The position numbers and the translations under genes are program-made. A stretch of DNA of 64,000 nt from Synechococcus sp. M16CYN (lineage in GTDB: Bacteria > Cyanobacteriota > Cyanobacteriia > PCC-6307 > Cyanobiaceae). A model generated the notes under the pieces. That model did not search any database. It was not told where the DNA came from and was given only the letters and a program-made list of their open reading frames with translations. The stretch is taken from assembly GCF_040371545.1 (NCBI RefSeq), contig NZ_AP029048.1, forward strand, positions 930,001 through 994,000, in the 5' to 3' direction. Shown here one piece after another: positions 4,264 through 11,818 of this stretch; the stretch's first letter is position 1; each line of letters starts with the position of its first letter.

Positions 4264-4866
4264 GTGACGGCTTCCGCTTATCGCTTCTTGCCGGATGATT
4301 CGGTTGCTCCGATGTCAATGCCTCGTCAGCAAACTGTTTTACTCGACCCTGCAGGCCGTGAACAGGCCACTGTTCTTGAGGTGATGGAAGGAGTCTGTCG
4401 TGTATATTGCCCTTGTGAGGAAACAGAGGGTATGACCCTGGCCTTCTTGCAATCTGGAGACCGTCTTCGAACTGACCGCCTCTGTAGTGATGGTGCTTGT
4501 GTAGAGGCGTTGACAGCCCTCAAATTTCGACGAGATGCTGTGAATTCTGATGACTTAGGCATGGACGCTGTTAACGAATGGACATTGCAGCTCTTACGCG
4601 TTCGTCATCTAGGTCAGGCTGAGCAGCGTTTGCATGCACTGCTTGTTCTTTTGGTGAATCGCTTAGGTATGAGACGCAGTAGTTGTTTTCAATTACCTTT
4701 CCGTTTGACACACGAACGTTTTGGAGAGCTGATTGGTGCAACCCGGGTTACTACAACTCGATTACTCTCCAAATGGCGTCAATCCAATTTGGTTGAGATG
4801 CCTTCGAATGATCTAACCACACGGTTGGCTCCATTTTTAGTCGAATCATCTCCTTTAACTTTCTAA
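4264..4866 (+). CDS. Crp/Fnr-family transcriptional regulator
   Basis: A 200-residue regulator with a reduced N-terminal sensor domain (about residues 20-85) and a C-terminal winged helix-turn-helix (about residues 150-190). The segment LTHERFGELIGATRVTTTRL fits the recognition region of Crp/Fnr proteins. The sensor lacks the canonical cAMP-binding signature, so its ligand is unknown. The call starts at GTG 4264; ATG codons at 4312 and 4318 are alternatives, and none of the three has a clear Shine-Dalgarno. It stands at the head of a block of iron-response genes, with a perfect inverted repeat at its start. Regulation of the flavodoxin, ferritin and iron-uptake genes nearby is a reasonable inference and is not shown by the sequence. 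Confidence 0.85.
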   Translation: MTASAYRFLPDDSVAPMSMPRQQTVLLDPAGREQATVLEVMEGVCRVYCPCEETEGMTLAFLQSGDRLRTDRLCSDGACVEALTALKFRRDAVNSDDLGMDAVNEWTLQLLRVRHLGQAEQRLHALLVLLVNRLGMRRSSCFQLPFRLTHERFGELIGATRVTTTRLLSKWRQSNLVEMPSNDLTTRLAPFLVESSPLTF

Positions 4867-4868
4867 AT

Positions 4869-5165
4869 ATGACAAGTCTAAGGACAATGGGTCTGCTTGG
4901 AGACTTATGTCATGAGGCTGATTACCTCTATACAAGGATAGCGGTTATTCATCTTGCATTAAAACGATGTAATAACTTAGGACTTCAACGCCGTTTTTAC
5001 TTTGAGATCAGTGTTCACATTCAGCGTTGTTTTGAGATGAAAAATATTGTTAGTCAATTTAAACTATTTGGATTTTCTAAATCTTGTCAACTCTATTTAT
5101 TAGAAGAATTAATCGATAGAGCACTAACCAAGAATATATCTATAGTTATACACAACAATAAATAG
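4869..5165 (+). CDS. Small hypothetical protein downstream of the regulator
   Basis: A 98-residue, Cys- and Leu-rich, mostly helical protein that begins two bases after the stop of the Crp-type regulator, so the two are almost certainly co-transcribed. There is no signal peptide or membrane segment. I do not recognise the family. Residues 30-80 (RCNNLGLQRRFYFEISVHIQ onwards) look like packed amphipathic helices. The tight coupling suggests a partner or modulator of the regulator, which is inference only. Confidence 0.6.
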   Translation: MTSLRTMGLLGDLCHEADYLYTRIAVIHLALKRCNNLGLQRRFYFEISVHIQRCFEMKNIVSQFKLFGFSKSCQLYLLEELIDRALTKNISIVIHNNK

Positions 5166-6055
5166 CTTATTGTTATTGAATGCAACTGATTAGAGTTTCT
5201 AACTTGATTAATATTTATTAGTTTAATCAAATCTTAATTACAAGAAATTGAGAATTTTAAATATAAATTCATTTATCGACAGTTAACTAACTAAACCCAA
5301 ATATTAACCGTTTAAAATATAGAAAATATCTTTAGGATTATTAATTGTCAAGCAAACAAATTATAAAAATTTCATATGTTCATTATACTTTATTTGTCAA
5401 ATATTTTAAAGCTTTGTCTAATTAATAGAGAATTAACAGCCTAAATGCTTAAAACTGCTTAAGCTGCTATAAAGTATAGTTAGCAATTTTGGTTCAGATA
5501 TTTCTATTATTAGATAATTAGCAAAAGTAAAAGACTTTATTATGAAACCAAAGGCTATTAATTCTGATATGTCAATTACAAAGTTAATTAAATTTTCTTG
5601 TACTGATTATGATTAAACTAATCATTTTTTTAAAAATCTGAGAGAATACATATTTCTGTGCTTAGATTAAGCATAGTCATGCTTATTAAGCATTCAGATT
5701 AAAAAATCTGTATCTATAAGGAATAACTCTTTCTAAAAACAAAAAATCTTAAGAACTTTTATTGATTGTATTTAAGCTAGTTTTAATAAATATAATTGCT
5801 GGCTTGCAAAAGTTAGAATAATTAAACTTAATTAAGCTACTTTAAAGTTTGTAGACTTATTTATTTAGCTAAGAATCCTTAAATTCATAAAAAGTAAAAG
5901 AGTGTTAATCAAATAATTTTATAGATTTATATTATTTAAATTAGTTCAAATAGATTGAAGTCTGTAACGAAAGAATGAGTGGAGCTGATGTAGTAATCAT
6001 GACTTTAGAATGCATCACACAATAACAAGATGCTTGTAGTCAAAGCCAAAATAGC
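5166..6055. other. AT-rich non-coding desert between regulator operon and isiB
   Basis: About 890 bases, strongly AT-rich, with stops in all frames. ATTGAGAATTT at 5247-5257 is on the minus strand AAATTCTCAAT, again resembling the core of a cyanobacterial Fur box; at this base composition chance matches are possible. No RNA gene or clear hairpin seen. The promoter of isiB should lie in its last 100 bases. Confidence 0.5.
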
Positions 6056-6068
6056 TGAGTCAGACTCA
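6056..6068 (+). promoter_or_regulatory. 13-bp palindrome just before isiB
   Basis: TGAGTC-A-GACTCA is a perfect palindrome with one central base, ending four bases before the isiB ATG. With no room for a loop it is better read as a protein-binding site than as an RNA hairpin. The same heptamer TGAGTCA occurs at 9930-9936, upstream of the ferritin gene of the same iron block. Confidence 0.4.
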
Positions 6069-6072
6069 TATC

Positions 6073-6582
6073 ATGACTTTCACCATTTTTTTTGCAACGT
6101 CTACCGGTAAAACAGAAGAGATTGCAAATCGCCTAACAGAATTGCTTCCAGGTTCAGAAGCTAAAGATGTTGATAATCTTGATTCATCGGATGAACTTGT
6201 TAGAGCTAACGCATTAATTTGCTGTATACCAACTTGGAATACTGGAGCTGATGAAGCACGTTCTGGAACCGCTTGGGATGATCTTGCTCAAGAAATTCCA
6301 AATCTTGATTTTACTGGAAAATCTGTTGCAATCCTTGGCTTAGGTGACTCCTCGGGATATTCAGATTTCTTCTGTGATGCGATGGAAGAATTATATACTG
6401 CTTTTCTTCAATCTGGCGCTAAACTAATTGGTAAGGTACCTGTGACGGGATATACATTTGAATCATCTAAAAGCGTAATTGACGGAAAATTTTGTGGTCT
6501 TCCTATTGACGAAGACAATGAGTCTGAATTTTCAGATGAACGATTGGCTAAATGGGTTAAACAAATTAATAGTGAGGCATAA
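6073..6582 (+). CDS. isiB: Flavodoxin (iron-stress electron carrier)
   Basis: A 169-residue long-chain flavodoxin that binds FMN and replaces ferredoxin as electron carrier after photosystem I when iron is scarce. The FMN phosphate loop ATSTGKTEEIA is at residues 9-19. The isoalloxazine-binding segments are PTWNTGADEARSG near residue 55, with the stacking Trp, and GLGDSSGYSDFF near residue 95, with the aromatic partner Tyr. The extra loop typical of long-chain flavodoxins is in the last third. It stands alone on the plus strand and converges on the thioredoxin-reductase-like gene 55 bases downstream. In cyanobacteria isiB is classically induced by iron starvation, which fits the neighbours. 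Confidence 0.96.
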   Translation: MTFTIFFATSTGKTEEIANRLTELLPGSEAKDVDNLDSSDELVRANALICCIPTWNTGADEARSGTAWDDLAQEIPNLDFTGKSVAILGLGDSSGYSDFFCDAMEELYTAFLQSGAKLIGKVPVTGYTFESSKSVIDGKFCGLPIDEDNESEFSDERLAKWVKQINSEA

Positions 6583-6637: not shown

Positions 6638-7597
6638 TTATCTATGAACCCAGTCTACCCGAATTTCCTTACGCTGGTTTAGATATTTATCAATAGACAT
6701 CGCAGCTATGCAGCCATCGGAGCAAGCAACCACAGCTTGCTTAAAGGGAGTATTTCTAATATCACCGATAGCCCATACACCATCAATATCAGTTTTCATA
6801 TTATCGTCTACTTTAATACCACCCTTAGTATTTAATGGGACTTGCCCATTCAAATACTCTATGATCGGCATAGATCCTGTTGAATAAATAAATACTCCAT
6901 TGACATTTACTGTTTCCATATTTAGTTTCCTTGTTTCTCGAAGTTTAATTTGTTTGACACCTGATTCGTCTCCTTCTATTTTTATGAGTTGTGTATATTG
7001 CCACCATTGAACATTCGGAGCTGTTGTCAATATATGCATACCTGTTGAGGATGATTTTGGTTTACTTTTTGTAATCCAATGTACTCTTGATGAAGACTTT
7101 ATTAAAACTAAAGCTTCATCGATTGCCTCTTGATTAAATCCATAAACTGCGACCTCTTGTTGCTTATAGAATGCGCTATCACATGTTGCACAATAACTAA
7201 CGCCTCTTCCAAGAAATTCATTTTCTCCCGGCAATGTTGATGCACGTCCCATTGCTCCGGTTGCTAAGACTAAGATTCTGCTACGAAAAATTCCTTCAGG
7301 TGTATAAACAATTTTTCGATCTGAATGCAAGTCAATACCGTAAACCTGTGCCTGTTTATATTTAGCTCCATAACTTATGGCTTGCTCTCTCATTAATTGT
7401 AAAAGAGCAGATCCAGATGTAGTAGCAGTTACTCCTGGATAATTTGCTATCTGATGAGTAATTGCTAATGCACCAACAGAGGGATTTTTATCAAGAATTT
7501 GAGTCGTAATTGATGATCTTGCCGTATACAAAGCGCAAGCACATCCCGCTGGACCTCCACCAATAATAAGCACATCTGAGTCAATAAAATCAGTCAT
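6638..7597 (-). CDS. Thioredoxin-reductase-like flavoprotein without visible NADPH motifs
   Basis: A 319-residue FAD disulfide oxidoreductase. The N-terminal FAD motif is VLIIGGGPAGCACALYTARS (residues 9-28), the redox-active pair is CATC in SYCATCDSAFY near residue 135, and the C-terminal FAD motif is VWAIGDIRNTPFKQAVVA. In ordinary NADPH thioredoxin reductases the segment after the CxxC carries a GxGxxA loop and an HRRxxxR phosphate-binding motif; here the corresponding region reads VAVYGFNQEAIDEAL and VHWITKSKPK, with neither motif intact. Pyridine-nucleotide-independent relatives are known in cyanobacteria, and this protein may belong with them. Reduction by flavodoxin or ferredoxin is inferred from the adjacent isiB. 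It lies 55 bases downstream of the hydrolase-like gene, on the same strand, probably as an operon. Confidence 0.85.
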   Translation of the reverse strand: MTDFIDSDVLIIGGGPAGCACALYTARSSITTQILDKNPSVGALAITHQIANYPGVTATTSGSALLQLMREQAISYGAKYKQAQVYGIDLHSDRKIVYTPEGIFRSRILVLATGAMGRASTLPGENEFLGRGVSYCATCDSAFYKQQEVAVYGFNQEAIDEALVLIKSSSRVHWITKSKPKSSSTGMHILTTAPNVQWWQYTQLIKIEGDESGVKQIKLRETRKLNMETVNVNGVFIYSTGSMPIIEYLNGQVPLNTKGGIKVDDNMKTDIDGVWAIGDIRNTPFKQAVVACSDGCIAAMSIDKYLNQRKEIRVDWVHR

Positions 7598-7652: not shown

Positions 7653-8363
7653 TTAAGTTTCAGGTACCATATCTAGAAAAGACTCAATAATCTGTGATGT
7701 TTGTCTTGGATCTTCGTAATGAAAAAAGTGTCTTCCGTTTTTAATTGACCGATAATGATCACCTGGCTTGAATTGACCTACCCAACGTTGATTAGCATTA
7801 CGATCAACAACAAAATCATCGTTGCCATTAATAACTAATGTTGGAACAGAAGCAATTCTGATGCTACCTAGTATGTACTGTGAAGCAATTGATCCAATAG
7901 TATATTCTTGATCTAAGCACTTTGCAAGAAGAGATACCATAGTTAAATTATTTTTAGATACTTTTTCCCTAAAGAGACAAGAAGATAAATGCATAAGGAT
8001 CCTTTCTCGACTACATGAAAACTGATTTCTCATTTTTAAATAATGCGATGTCCATTGATTAGTTATTGCTGTGTCTACAGAGAGTAGTATTGTTGAATGT
8101 ACAGTTTCCGGATATTTATTAGCAAAGAGATGAGCTATTGTGCCACTTATTCCATGACCAATTAAATGGTATTTTCGGTTTTCTCTACGCATTGTTTCTA
8201 ATATCAATTCGTGTATTGTCGCAATACTACATGCTTCATCAAGATCGTGTTGAAATGACCAGTATTTAATCAGTCTATTTTTAACTAAAATTTTTATAAG
8301 TCGTTGATTAATGCAATGTAATATTGGCTGCAGATCGATCCATAGAATTGTCGGTAGGCTCAT
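7653..8363 (-). CDS. Alpha/beta-hydrolase-like protein with altered nucleophile motif
   Basis: A 236-residue alpha/beta-hydrolase fold protein. The nucleophile elbow reads LIGHGISGTIAH near residue 75: where the family has G-x-Ser-x-G, the central residue here is Gly, with a Ser two positions later. The acid (VINGNDDFVVD near residue 180) and the His (NGRHFFHYEDP near residue 215) are in their expected places. Either the Ser has shifted register in an unusual elbow or the protein has lost hydrolase activity and kept a binding role. The start at 8363 is an ATG followed by a hydrophobic strand. It precedes the thioredoxin-reductase-like gene in a likely two-gene operon. The substrate is unknown. 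Confidence 0.75.
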   Translation of the reverse strand: MSLPTILWIDLQPILHCINQRLIKILVKNRLIKYWSFQHDLDEACSIATIHELILETMRRENRKYHLIGHGISGTIAHLFANKYPETVHSTILLSVDTAITNQWTSHYLKMRNQFSCSRERILMHLSSCLFREKVSKNNLTMVSLLAKCLDQEYTIGSIASQYILGSIRIASVPTLVINGNDDFVVDRNANQRWVGQFKPGDHYRSIKNGRHFFHYEDPRQTSQIIESFLDMVPET

Positions 8364-9296
8364 TATGAGTAAAATTTTTACTAGTATGCTTGTTTAAGTA
8401 CTCATCATTTGTTGTTTTTAACATTTTCATGTTTCGAATTATACTTATAATGATACCATTCAATTTTATTAATTTTAGTATTATTTAAACTAGGCCATAC
8501 ATCATTTTTAATGCTAAGAAATCTTATAAATCTTAGTGCTTTGATTAAATTAATACCATGACTAAACATTAGTATAAGTAAACAGATTTTTACATAAACT
8601 CTTTTAGTAAAGTTAAGATAACATTTTACTTTTACTTGAAATTATACTTCAAGCTAGTGTGTTTTTCTTAACAGCTAATTCTAATAAATTTTAATTCTAT
8701 CCCAGCTTTAAATTTTTTTGATTAACAATTATATCTTTTTCAATAGATTTTAGTATATTAGCATAATTAATATATACTATGTCATTTTTTAACTCTTTTT
8801 GTAGATGAGAAAGTACAATGAATTTGCAGTACATCCTAACCTGTCTTGATTATAGCTATTTGGTTTAACTATATCAATTCTAAACAAGAATTTAGTTTAA
8901 TAAATTATTACTAATTTTTTATTTGCTTAACTAGATTTTACTGGTATATACTGCACATAGCTAAATCTTTGTAATCAAAATATAAACTAACTGATATTTT
9001 ATTAAAACACGAATAAGCTCCATTATTTAGATATACTAACCCTATAATAAGTGCTGATAAATTTACTTTAAATATTTTTAATTTTAAAATTTAATTATAA
9101 ATAGTTATAGACCCTTAAAGTTTATTAAATTTATTTCATATAATTGTCAAAAATTTTGCACAATGAACATGATATATGATTACTAAAATGTAAAATTAAA
9201 ATTTAATATTTTAATTTCTTTCTACATTTGTTTAAAGCGTAAATAGATTTTATATACTCGCAGTTTCTAATTTTCCAGATATAATACTAATAGCTT
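8364..9296. other. AT-rich non-coding desert
   Basis: About 930 bases, extremely AT-rich, with dense stops in all frames. It separates the hydrolase/flavoprotein pair from the ferritin gene, both on the minus strand. I see no tRNA, no strong hairpin and no recognisable gene remnant. Confidence 0.55.
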
Positions 9297-9884
9297 TTAA
9301 CTTTTAAGTACCGCTGGTTGATGTTGTCCTTGGTAAAGTTCATTGTCAATAATCAGTAATGCAGGCGCTTCATTTCTTGCAAATTTAACTCGTCCCAAAA
9401 GATATGCAAATTCATTCTCTGCTTGGGTTTGTTGATCAATCATAGAATCTAGGAATACAGTAGTTCTCATATCTGATACTTGTTCCCCAAGCGCATAAAG
9501 TTGATGAAGAGAAGCAGTTATGTCGGCCTCCATAAGAAAAGAGCTTGCTAAAATATCTACCGGAGATTCCCATAATTGCTTTGGGGCTTCAAGTGAAAGC
9601 AGCTTAACTATTTGTCCACGAGCAATTAAGTATTCAGCAAATTGTGCGGCATGTCCATGTTCAGTTTGAGATTCTTCTCGAAAATACTTAGAGAAACCTT
9701 TAAGTTCACGTTCAGCAAACCATATTGCTGCTGCAAAATAGTTTGTGTGAGCTTGACGCTCCATATTAAGATGGTGCTGTAGTCCGTTAAACAAATCTTC
9801 TGCCATTGGCTCTGCTACGGCACGACCTGAAAATCCAGTATTTACAGCGTTAATGCCAAACTGTGAGGTGGTTACTGAAGTCAT
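9297..9884 (-). CDS. Ferritin (non-heme iron-storage protein)
   Basis: A 195-residue four-helix ferritin that oxidises Fe(II) and stores the mineral in a 24-subunit shell. Ferroxidase residues are visible in helix A/B (NMERQAHTNYFAAAIWF, then REESQTEHGHAAQF, with the E-x2-H ligands) and in helix C/D (DQQTQAENEFAYLL). An upstream in-frame extension exists, but the start at ATG 9884 is supported by AAGGAG ten bases upstream and by the loss of homology-like sequence before it. The N-terminal 25 residues precede helix A and are longer than in most bacterial ferritins. It follows the iron-binding protein gene by 134 bases on the same strand and fits an iron storage role in this block. Confidence 0.92.
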   Translation of the reverse strand: MTSVTTSQFGINAVNTGFSGRAVAEPMAEDLFNGLQHHLNMERQAHTNYFAAAIWFAERELKGFSKYFREESQTEHGHAAQFAEYLIARGQIVKLLSLEAPKQLWESPVDILASSFLMEADITASLHQLYALGEQVSDMRTTVFLDSMIDQQTQAENEFAYLLGRVKFARNEAPALLIIDNELYQGQHQPAVLKS

Positions 9885-10018
9885 GAGTAAGTACTCCTTG
9901 CAGTCGTTATGACATGAATATAACCACACTGAGTCACAAATGCATCTGCCAAGTGTTACTTTTATTTTTGCTACTAATAATTAGTATCAACTATTCTATG
10001 TGGGTCTAGTTATCTCTA

Positions 10019-11017
10019 TTAACGCCATCCATAATTAGTCATAATCTGAATAGCTCTTTTTTGTGTACTTCCAAGTTTACTAATTGATGTACTAGCTGAA
10101 TTAAATCGTCCAAACTTTTTGAGTTCATTAGATTCTCCGAACCCATTTATAGGATATTCATAGGTTGGTTTAGTTAAAAATATACTACCTTTTGGTGAAG
10201 CAAGAAAGGAAATTAGTTTAATCGCTTCGGCTTTATTTCTTGCTGATTTTACCATTCCAGCAGCACTTATATTGACATGCGCAGGATTAGGCATAATCAA
10301 TTTAATTGTTTCTGTTAATAGCTTGTCTTTCTTTCCGTTAGCACCAGCTTGCATGCGGGCTAAATAATAGTGATTAACAACACCCACACCACATTGACCT
10401 TGGCCAACGGCTCGAATAAGAGATGTATCTCCACCAAAAAATGGTTGATTCACGTTTTTGATCATTCCTTGCACCCAACTTATTGTTTTGGTTTCGCCTT
10501 GCTGGATAATTTGATCTGCGACAAGAGACTGATTATATACATTTTTTCGTTTTCTTAAACAAAGTTTTCCTTTAAGATTTGGATTTGCCAAATCATCGTA
10601 GCTCTTGATGCTTTCTACCTCTACTAATTTAGGATTAACAATAACAGCTCTAACTCGTCGTGTTAGACCAAACCATCTATGTTTTGGGTCACGATATTGC
10701 ACAGGAATATTCTGGGTTAGCTGGTTAGATTCTATTGGAGCTAATAACCCTTCCTTTGCTGCGTTGTTTATACGTGCTGCATCGACGAGTAGGATTACAT
10801 CTGCCCTTGAATTCGTTCCTTCACGCTTAAGTCTTTCTATTAGTGTCATGCCATCGGCCTCAATTAGTCTAACCTTAATCTTGGTAAGTTTATTAAATGC
10901 TTTGAAAGCTTGGCGGTCCGTATTGTAGTAACGTCCTGAGTAAACTAAAACTTCTCTCGCAGTATTAGGAATTTGGATCGCCATTAGCAGAGTTATTGCA
11001 AGAGCAGGAAGTAACAA
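10019..11017 (-). CDS. futA: Iron(III) ABC transporter substrate-binding protein, FutA/IdiA type
   Basis: A periplasmic ferric-iron-binding protein of about 332 residues feeding an ABC importer. Typical signals are VYSGRYYNTD at the mature N-terminus, the central GGDTSLIRAVGQGQCGVGVV and the paired tyrosines of NHYYLAR that coordinate iron. The N-terminal hydrophobic stretch LLLPALAITLLMA is a signal peptide that lacks its positive start. In the frame given, the first usable codon is TTG 11017. A better start, GTG 11030 with AAGGA 8 bases upstream, is one base out of frame: deleting one G at 11020-11021 gives M-K-S-A-L-L-L-P, a normal signal peptide. This is a frameshift, an unusual TTG start or a sequencing error. 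No transporter membrane or ATPase subunit is nearby. Confidence 0.85.
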   Translation of the reverse strand: MLLPALAITLLMAIQIPNTAREVLVYSGRYYNTDRQAFKAFNKLTKIKVRLIEADGMTLIERLKREGTNSRADVILLVDAARINNAAKEGLLAPIESNQLTQNIPVQYRDPKHRWFGLTRRVRAVIVNPKLVEVESIKSYDDLANPNLKGKLCLRKRKNVYNQSLVADQIIQQGETKTISWVQGMIKNVNQPFFGGDTSLIRAVGQGQCGVGVVNHYYLARMQAGANGKKDKLLTETIKLIMPNPAHVNISAAGMVKSARNKAEAIKLISFLASPKGSIFLTKPTYEYPINGFGESNELKKFGRFNSASTSISKLGSTQKRAIQIMTNYGWR

Positions 11018-11152: not shown

Positions 11153-11818
11153 ATGGATTATTTGACATCCGAACTCTTTACTTGTCAAGAAATCAGCCGT
11201 CTCTATTGTGACCTTATGGCAGATAATTTACCCTGGCTTGATGGTCGACTTACTGCTGGAGATCATGCAGCTCGCGTTAAAACTAATCGTCAACTCGATC
11301 CTACCTCACCCTTAGCCATTTCTATTATTAAGATCGTCACAAATAAGATAATTTCTAACTCTCTTTTGAAGAGTTACGCACTCATTTATAAAGTACATAG
11401 TATTTTGCTGTCTCGTAGTGAAATTGGTGATGGGTATGGTTGGCATGTAGATAATCCATTTTCGAAGTATGGTCGTCGTGATATCTCTTTTACTCTCTTC
11501 TTAAGTAATCCTAGTGAGTATGATGGAGGCGAACTTGTTTTTCAATCAATTCAAACTACAAATAGTATTCGTTTATCAGCGGGTCACATTATTCTCTATC
11601 CTAGCTCGTTACTGCATTGTGTTCAACCCATCTTAGGTGGTATTCGACTTGTTTGTGTTGGTTGGATTGAGAGTTACGTTCAATCTTCAGAAGATCGTTC
11701 CCTCCTCTTTAATTTAGAAGCTGGCGCTAAGGGTTTGCTTGCTCGACACGGTCGTTCTGATGAATTAGATCTAATTTTTCAATCTTATGCAAATGCTGTT
11801 AGACGCTTTTCTAGTTAA
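11153..11818 (+). CDS. PKHD-type Fe(II)/2-oxoglutarate hydroxylase (PiuC-like)
   Basis: A 221-residue double-stranded beta-helix dioxygenase of the PKHD/PiuC type. The iron-binding facial triad is HVD (WHVDNPFSKYG near residue 98) and the distal His of SSLLHCVQPI near residue 158; the 2-oxoglutarate-binding Arg is in GGIRLVCVGWIESYVQ. The substrate is not known; in other bacteria the piuC gene accompanies iron-uptake receptors. It starts 135 bases from the start of the divergent futA gene, so both probably share a control region. This pairing of futA with a PiuC-like gene is in keeping with an iron-starvation operon. Confidence 0.9.
   Translation: MDYLTSELFTCQEISRLYCDLMADNLPWLDGRLTAGDHAARVKTNRQLDPTSPLAISIIKIVTNKIISNSLLKSYALIYKVHSILLSRSEIGDGYGWHVDNPFSKYGRRDISFTLFLSNPSEYDGGELVFQSIQTTNSIRLSAGHIILYPSSLLHCVQPILGGIRLVCVGWIESYVQSSEDRSLLFNLEAGAKGLLARHGRSDELDLIFQSYANAVRRFSS

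Follow-up and report, generated by a model that had tools for sequence, protein, structure and literature searches.

The FFTR Locus

The window, i.e., the whole stretch of 64,000 nucleotides that was analyzed (G000:C1:930001-994000), comes from a genome of 1.957 Mb that is 98.5% complete and lies in two contigs (1,940,073 and 17,326 bases). A thioredoxin reductase gene on its minus strand converges on isiB, a flavodoxin gene, and a gene for a hydrolase-fold protein lies directly upstream of the reductase gene. Loci where the reductase gene converges on isiB are called linked in what follows; 21 of them, including the window's, were read. The features are as follows.

4264–4866, plus strand: Crp/Fnr-family regulator (HTH_Crp_2); 9 of the 21 linked loci encode a homologue close to the cassette
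4869–5165, plus strand: small ORF without a Pfam match; homologues are present at 9 of the 21 linked loci
5989–6003, plus strand: TGTA-N8-GAC element, a candidate operator, beginning 84 nt before the isiB start
6073–6582, plus strand: isiB, long-chain flavodoxin of 169 aa (NCBIfam NF006738), convergent with the FFTR gene
6638–7597, minus strand: FFTR/DTR-type thioredoxin reductase of 319 aa, with CATC (C136–C139), no NADPH motifs and a C-terminal tail with W316
7653–8363, minus strand: alpha/beta-hydrolase-fold protein, directly upstream of FFTR, with Gly at the nucleophile position (GHGISG) and Asp182 and His211 kept
9297–9929, minus strand: ferritin (Pfam Ferritin), in the island flank
10019–11017, minus strand: extracellular solute-binding protein, with a homologue in 8 of 21 linked loci
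11153–11818, plus strand: Fe2+-dependent PKHD-type dioxygenase (NF003974, above cut-off)

The reductase frame is intact, with an ATG start and no internal stops in 319 codons. A first-pass annotation of the DNA had reported a CATC pair and two FAD motifs, and these are confirmed: GGGPAG occupies residues 13–18, the second FAD segment is VWAIGDIRNTPFKQA, and the redox-active pair is C136 and C139. The annotation's claim that GxGxxA and HRRxxxR are missing after the CxxC also holds. The GxGxxA position reads VAVYGFNQEA, the HRRxxxR position reads VHWITKSKPKSS, and a pattern check of the window FFTR and 40 relatives found neither GxGxxA/G after CATC (0/41) nor HRRxxxR (0/41). All 41 have a DW[VI]H tail at the C-terminus, which is DWVH in the window protein. 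As for thioredoxin-binding motifs, GR/KG is present as GRG at residues 130–132, before CATC, and the likely site of FF reads FY (AFYK; AFYR in the Gloeobacter chain).

Among solved structures, the protein matches the Gloeobacter enzyme best (5j60/6xtf; residues 5–318 of 319, E 8.6e-122). The best ordinary thioredoxin reductase is found at E 9.8e-49, and the DDOR Slr0600 matches weakly, at E 7.3e-11. To judge from its sequence, the product is a member of the FFTR (formerly DTR) family, and for a member of this family the loss of the NADPH motifs is expected. The loss is not new: excerpts of PMC9025218 and PMC12796991 describe it, the former giving as FFTR traits a CxxC, an FAD-binding motif and a missing NADPH motif GxGxxA/G. 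The pyridine-nucleotide independence suggested by the first-pass annotation thus gains support through family membership.

Two other identities are very improbable: a thioredoxin reductase whose motifs have degenerated but which still uses NADPH, and a diflavin enzyme of the DDOR type. The NCBIfam thioredoxin reductase model TIGR01292 does match the protein, with 278.2 bits, although this is below the 343.45 cut-off. NTR membership was rejected on that score and because both NADPH motifs are missing (VYGFNQEA; VHWITKSKP), and DDOR membership because Slr0600 is too distant in the comparison with solved structures. The tail common to all 41 FFTRs, and the absence of NADPH motifs from every one of them, argue likewise. 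In the sequence search FFTR is by far its nearest family, well ahead of NTR and DDOR, and the protein does not fall among ordinary reductases. The trees that were built comprise FFTRs only, save one that also took two distant reductases.

Linkage of FFTR to isiB

The window flavodoxin scores 248.7 bits against NF006738 (cut-off 172), and 61 nt separate the convergent isiB and FFTR match ends. FFTR (at least 65% identity) is found in 20 of 34 genomes of the genus, and isiB (at least 75%) in the same 20. The family sample consists of 230 genomes, each at least 85% complete; six linked genus genomes less complete than this (G014, G016–G020) belong to the 34-genome count and lie outside the 230-genome count.

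FFTR occurs in 98 of the 230 family genomes, isiB in 110, and FTR, scored by its catalytic subunit alone (PF02943), in 152. In all genomes having both FFTR and FTR (26/26), FFTR is convergent to isiB. The FFTR genomes with no FTR among the matches listed number 72. Three of these are linked, 63 have isiB elsewhere (a class that includes fragmented assemblies with the genes on different contigs), and 6 have no detected isiB, which may reflect incomplete assembly. Match ends of FFTR and isiB are 43–108 nt apart in the 29 linked genomes. The first-pass annotation had taken the adjacency to isiB as meaningful and was right to do so: because the same convergent arrangement recurs in 29 of 230 family genomes, the neighborhood is not due to chance.

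The linked isiB genes form one flavodoxin subtype. Every isiB match of at least 65% identity in the family genomes adjoins FFTR (29/29), and the isiB of the 18 genomes with isiB and no FFTR is less similar (51–62%). In three FFTR genomes outside the family, isiB is on a separate contig. Named FFTR matches number 434. Of the best 80, 18 have isiB and the hydrolase gene near FFTR, namely 17 records with the title Synechococcus and one Crocinitomicaceae-titled MAG. In the remaining 62, the stretch read has no isiB; by title these are Prochlorococcus (60), Prochlorococcaceae (1) and an uncultured cyanobacterium (1). The Crocinitomicaceae-titled MAG (L114), with its Synechococcus-type FFTR–isiB locus, is probably mis-binned.

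Pairwise distances of isiB and FFTR correlate across 20 loci (r 0.76), and for isiB, FFTR and hydrolase together r ranges from 0.76 to 0.94 (0/2000 permutations as high in either case), correlations that shared ancestry alone would also yield. Between the window and L060, dN/dS (NG86) is 0.067 for FFTR, 0.039 for isiB and 0.084 for the hydrolase gene, weak estimates given saturated dS (about 1.8 or more). Of the 20 genus genomes with the cassette, 13 have a second flavodoxin gene at another site, 56–62% identical (G002, G005, G006, G014–G019, G023, G028–G030), and none was seen in the 14 cassette-free ones.

The Linked FFTRs Form a Clade

The FFTR tree has 44 rows: the window, 20 linked and 20 unlinked family FFTRs, and three FFTRs from other cyanobacterial families, on which it is rooted; G229 was left out. 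The linked FFTRs (21 of 44 rows) form a single clade with support 100/100, and the 20 Prochlorococcus-type FFTRs form a separate one (100/95). An earlier tree included the distant L103 and L104. It had branches of 4–6 changes per column and a midpoint root inside the linked rows, and the linked group was not one clade; the tree was rebuilt without these two rows, and the second tree is trusted more. Two distant reductases of the same phylum (36% identity; G432:C38:29045-29971 and G476:C9:48241-49179) have one in-frame TAA each.

Several residues mark the linked clade, as follows (window numbering, with the Gloeobacter row outside the comparison). Y152 is found in 21/21 linked and 1/23 other FFTRs, D160 in 21/21 and 0/23, K179 in 19/21 and 0/23, and C292 in 19/21 and 0/23; S239 is also among them. 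Two genera are interleaved in the clade, for example on a mixed branch of 7 rows (94/85), which suggests cassette transfer or old duplications.

The Third Gene

Of the 21 linked loci read, 20 have the hydrolase gene immediately upstream of FFTR and in the same orientation; 0/20 unlinked loci do. The two reading frames overlap in 14 of these 20 copies, and in the window a gap of 55 nt separates them. At E 1e-25 or better, a threshold that may miss distant copies elsewhere, the gene is found in 28 of the 230 family genomes and, among the matches listed, in none of the other 201; all 28 are linked (28/29, G048 being the exception). In these 28 it is always upstream of FFTR, with 2–74 nt between match ends.

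In place of the HSxG of serine hydrolases, all 20 copies have HGxS. Asp182 and His211 are invariant in the 17 of 20 copies that were aligned for folding, as is one cysteine, C44. In the predicted structure (pLDDT 87.5), the Gly is located between strand 64–69 and helix 71–82, which we take to be the usual nucleophile elbow. The fold matches of the model are generic hydrolases and NDRG proteins. A non-hydrolytic role is likely.

Flanking Genes and a Candidate Operator

In some of the linked loci the cassette is accompanied by genes related to iron. Besides the families given above, homologues of a Pcb/IsiA-type antenna protein are found in 9 of 21 linked loci, of ferritin in 8 and of the PKHD dioxygenase in 7; all flank counts come from stretches of 7–12 kb, some ended by contig ends, and are lower bounds. 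For the solute-binding protein, we infer iron binding of the FutA/IdiA type. Every linked locus (21/21) has one or more flanking families in common with some other locus, and when at least two shared families are required, the loci form five sets (14, 3, 2, 1 and 1). The flanks thus partly differ, and the cassette persists among them.

Eight of the 21 linked loci also encode a plant-type [2Fe-2S] ferredoxin close to the cassette, e.g., at 7803–8114 of L062, near the hydrolase and FFTR genes. The stretches read of the window and of its two nearest relatives, L060 and L061, showed no such island ferredoxin. The window's genome has six Fer2 matches, one of which (93 bits) is 64% identical to the L062 island ferredoxin and may be the canonical ferredoxin.

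Seven of 21 loci have the sequence TGTA-N8-[GC]AC at one and the same distance, exactly 84 nt, ahead of the isiB start, and a Crp-type regulator is encoded near all 7. It is a candidate operator of that regulator. Shuffled sequences gave a mean of 0.4 loci, and 0/500 shuffles were as high; the looser TGTA-N8-NA[CG] occurs in 13/21 loci against a shuffled mean of 3.4 (again 0/500). As the patterns were picked after viewing the sequences, the shuffles were of single bases and related loci were counted separately, these figures are leads only. An NtcA-type site, GTA-N8-TAC, was found upstream of isiB in 0/21 loci. Around the cassette, the window has AT-rich stretches free of ORFs of at least 90 aa (5166–6072 and 8364–9296), in line with a decaying symbiont genome.

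FTR and Its Decay

The window's genome retains the FTR catalytic subunit. No match to PF02943 is listed for two other cassette holders, G221 and G229, both single-contig genomes. Remnants of ftrC are nevertheless present in both at the syntenic position, between sufB and sufR. In G229, an N-terminal part is left, with one cysteine lost and a stop after ALCS (L199, near 10413–10592), and in G221 the stub is shorter (L197, near 4915–5130). The gene is whole in the relatives G225 and G237, and G221, G225 and G237 share an FFTR-tree branch (100/98). G048, which is 95% complete, is the third linked genome without an FTR match. Because all Synechococcus studied contain FTR according to excerpts of PMC9025218, G221 and G229 appear to be exceptions. 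The decay of ftrC suggests that a linked FFTR may be able to carry the cell's light-driven thioredoxin reduction.

A further thioredoxin-related gene of the window's genome, of the NTRC type (G000:C1:1654727-1655648; L002/L003), consists of two overlapping frames, broken at a run of ten G. It is whole in the relatives G001 and G003, and the split reflects a pseudogene, slippage or a sequencing slip.

Which Carrier Feeds FFTR?

Light switches on carbon fixation via thioredoxin, and most cyanobacteria signal through ferredoxin and FTR, both of which are iron-sulfur proteins. Iron is limiting in large areas of the ocean. The best reading of the cassette is an iron-sparing back-up for FTR, with flavodoxin probably feeding FFTR. 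The mechanism proposed is as follows. FFTR would act as a homodimer with FAD and accept electrons one at a time from a low-potential carrier of photosystem I; electrons would pass from FAD to the CATC disulfide and on to thioredoxin, free of NADPH and with no iron in FFTR. The distinct FFTR clade is inherited in marine Synechococcus together with isiB and the hydrolase-like gene, often inside an iron-stress island. Under iron shortage, ferredoxin and the 4Fe-4S FTR would be hard to maintain, and flavodoxin hydroquinone would become the main donor, giving the route photosystem I–flavodoxin–FFTR–thioredoxin.

We consider this full explanation, in which an FFTR in the isiB cassette has flavodoxin as its main donor under iron shortage and substitutes for FTR, to be rather probable. 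Family, motifs, linkage, clade and the decay of ftrC in two relatives are drawn from sequences. The Gloeobacter mechanism with its ferredoxin dependence, and the induction of isiB and a trxB by iron starvation, are drawn from the literature; flavodoxin as donor and the substitute role for FTR are what we infer. The first-pass interpretation as a whole, with flavodoxin as a possible donor, is thus supported in part.

With a potential near −440 mV, flavodoxin hydroquinone would suit FFTR equally well. The potentials given for Gloeobacter in excerpts of PMC12796991 are −448 mV for the FFTR FAD, −424 mV for ferredoxin, −356 mV for the disulfide and −320 mV for NADPH, and the FAD is reported there to be reduced by single electrons, from Fdx1. 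Flavodoxin drives FTR in vitro, less well than ferredoxin does (PMC5362689, in part). An iron chelator raised isiB and a trxB in Synechococcus metatranscriptomes, the trxB not being identified as FFTR in the relevant part of PMC9723758. The literature searched yielded no test of flavodoxin with any FFTR, by which absence from print is not established.

Several points speak against flavodoxin as donor. Since isiB and FFTR are convergent, they have no common promoter. The island ferredoxin (8/21 loci) is a rival local donor, and the two genes also occur apart, with isiB lacking FFTR in 18 of 230 genomes and FFTR lacking a detected isiB in 6. Because none of the 21 loci has flanks entirely of its own, co-inheritance may reflect a single iron island rather than an electron-transfer pair. 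FFTR would then be an ordinary ferredoxin-driven enzyme, co-located with flavodoxin, ferritin and iron uptake as low-iron genes, and its donor would be the canonical or the island ferredoxin. The reduction of Gloeobacter FFTR by Fdx1 (PMC12796991, in part) fits such an arrangement, as does the fact that isiB is not the neighbor of 69 of the 98 FFTRs in the family, nor of three in other families. However, the isiB–FFTR pair holds together where other island genes differ or are absent, and the stretches read of the window, L060 and L061 have no island ferredoxin. We regard a ferredoxin-driven FFTR of this kind as less likely than not.

Far less credible is a co-transferred accessory island with FFTR and flavodoxin functionally uncoupled, where presence merely follows the gain or loss of one piece of DNA. 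Presence is indeed patchy and all-or-none across the 34 genus genomes, and the interleaving of two genera in the FFTR tree (the mixed branch of 7 rows) would be explained. Yet even linked FFTRs with as little as about 60% identity to that of the window still have the other genes beside them, and the fact that ftrC has decayed in two genomes with the cassette suggests that FFTR does cellular work.

The iron-sparing reading also has a more specific form, which we put forward tentatively and hold to be somewhat less probable than its negation. It posits a dedicated flavodoxin:thioredoxin reductase, the FFTR clade having co-evolved with its own flavodoxin subtype and the serine-less hydrolase-fold partner. 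The result would be a light-driven chain with an iron-free carrier and reductase after photosystem I, which would replace FTR under low iron and would have let some Synechococcus lose it.

If flavodoxin feeds FFTR, low-iron Synechococcus can keep redox control at a lower iron cost, and the cassette in the closest relatives suggests a way of keeping thioredoxin reduced under iron scarcity. The 26/26 linkage, with ftrC decay in two cassette holders, leads from a gene neighborhood to a direct biochemical test and adds an uncharacterized third partner.

Comparison with Known Systems

A gene cluster of flavodoxin and thioredoxin reductase in low-iron Synechococcus populations, Syn-eCAG_011, is already known (PMC10119275, in part). 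It is probably the same gene pair as the window's, compared by description only. In the section of PMC10119275 on this cluster, the reductase is not named FFTR, and NADPH independence, the third gene and FTR go unmentioned. As far as the literature was searched, what is new is the identity of the reductase as FFTR in this pairing, the FTR pattern, the hydrolase-like partner that lacks the serine, and the decay of ftrC in two genomes.

According to excerpts of PMC9025218 and PMC12796991, FFTRs are ferredoxin-dependent and are the sole thioredoxin reductase in Gloeobacter and Prochlorococcus. The Gloeobacter violaceus FFTR/DTR (5j60, 6xtf) resembles the window FFTR in its near full-length alignment, its CATC and its lack of NADPH motifs. 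The W of its DWxH tail, which aligns with W316, is reported in part of that literature to stack on the partner FAD. Unlike the Gloeobacter enzyme, the linked clade has a conserved gene cassette and residues of its own, the Gloeobacter row lying outside the residue comparison.

The Prochlorococcus FFTR has the same motifs as the window's, and unlinked family FFTRs are 58–63% identical to the window protein. In contrast, the Prochlorococcus FFTR belongs to a separate clade with no isiB homologue or hydrolase within the 4–7 kb read (20/20), and genomes with the Prochlorococcus-type FFTR are without FTR among the matches listed, whereas the window's genome has FTR. The DDOR Slr0600 (PDB 5jri) is, like the window FFTR, a CxxC flavoenzyme without an NADPH site (PMC9025218, in part), but it is distant in sequence, as the structure search above indicates.
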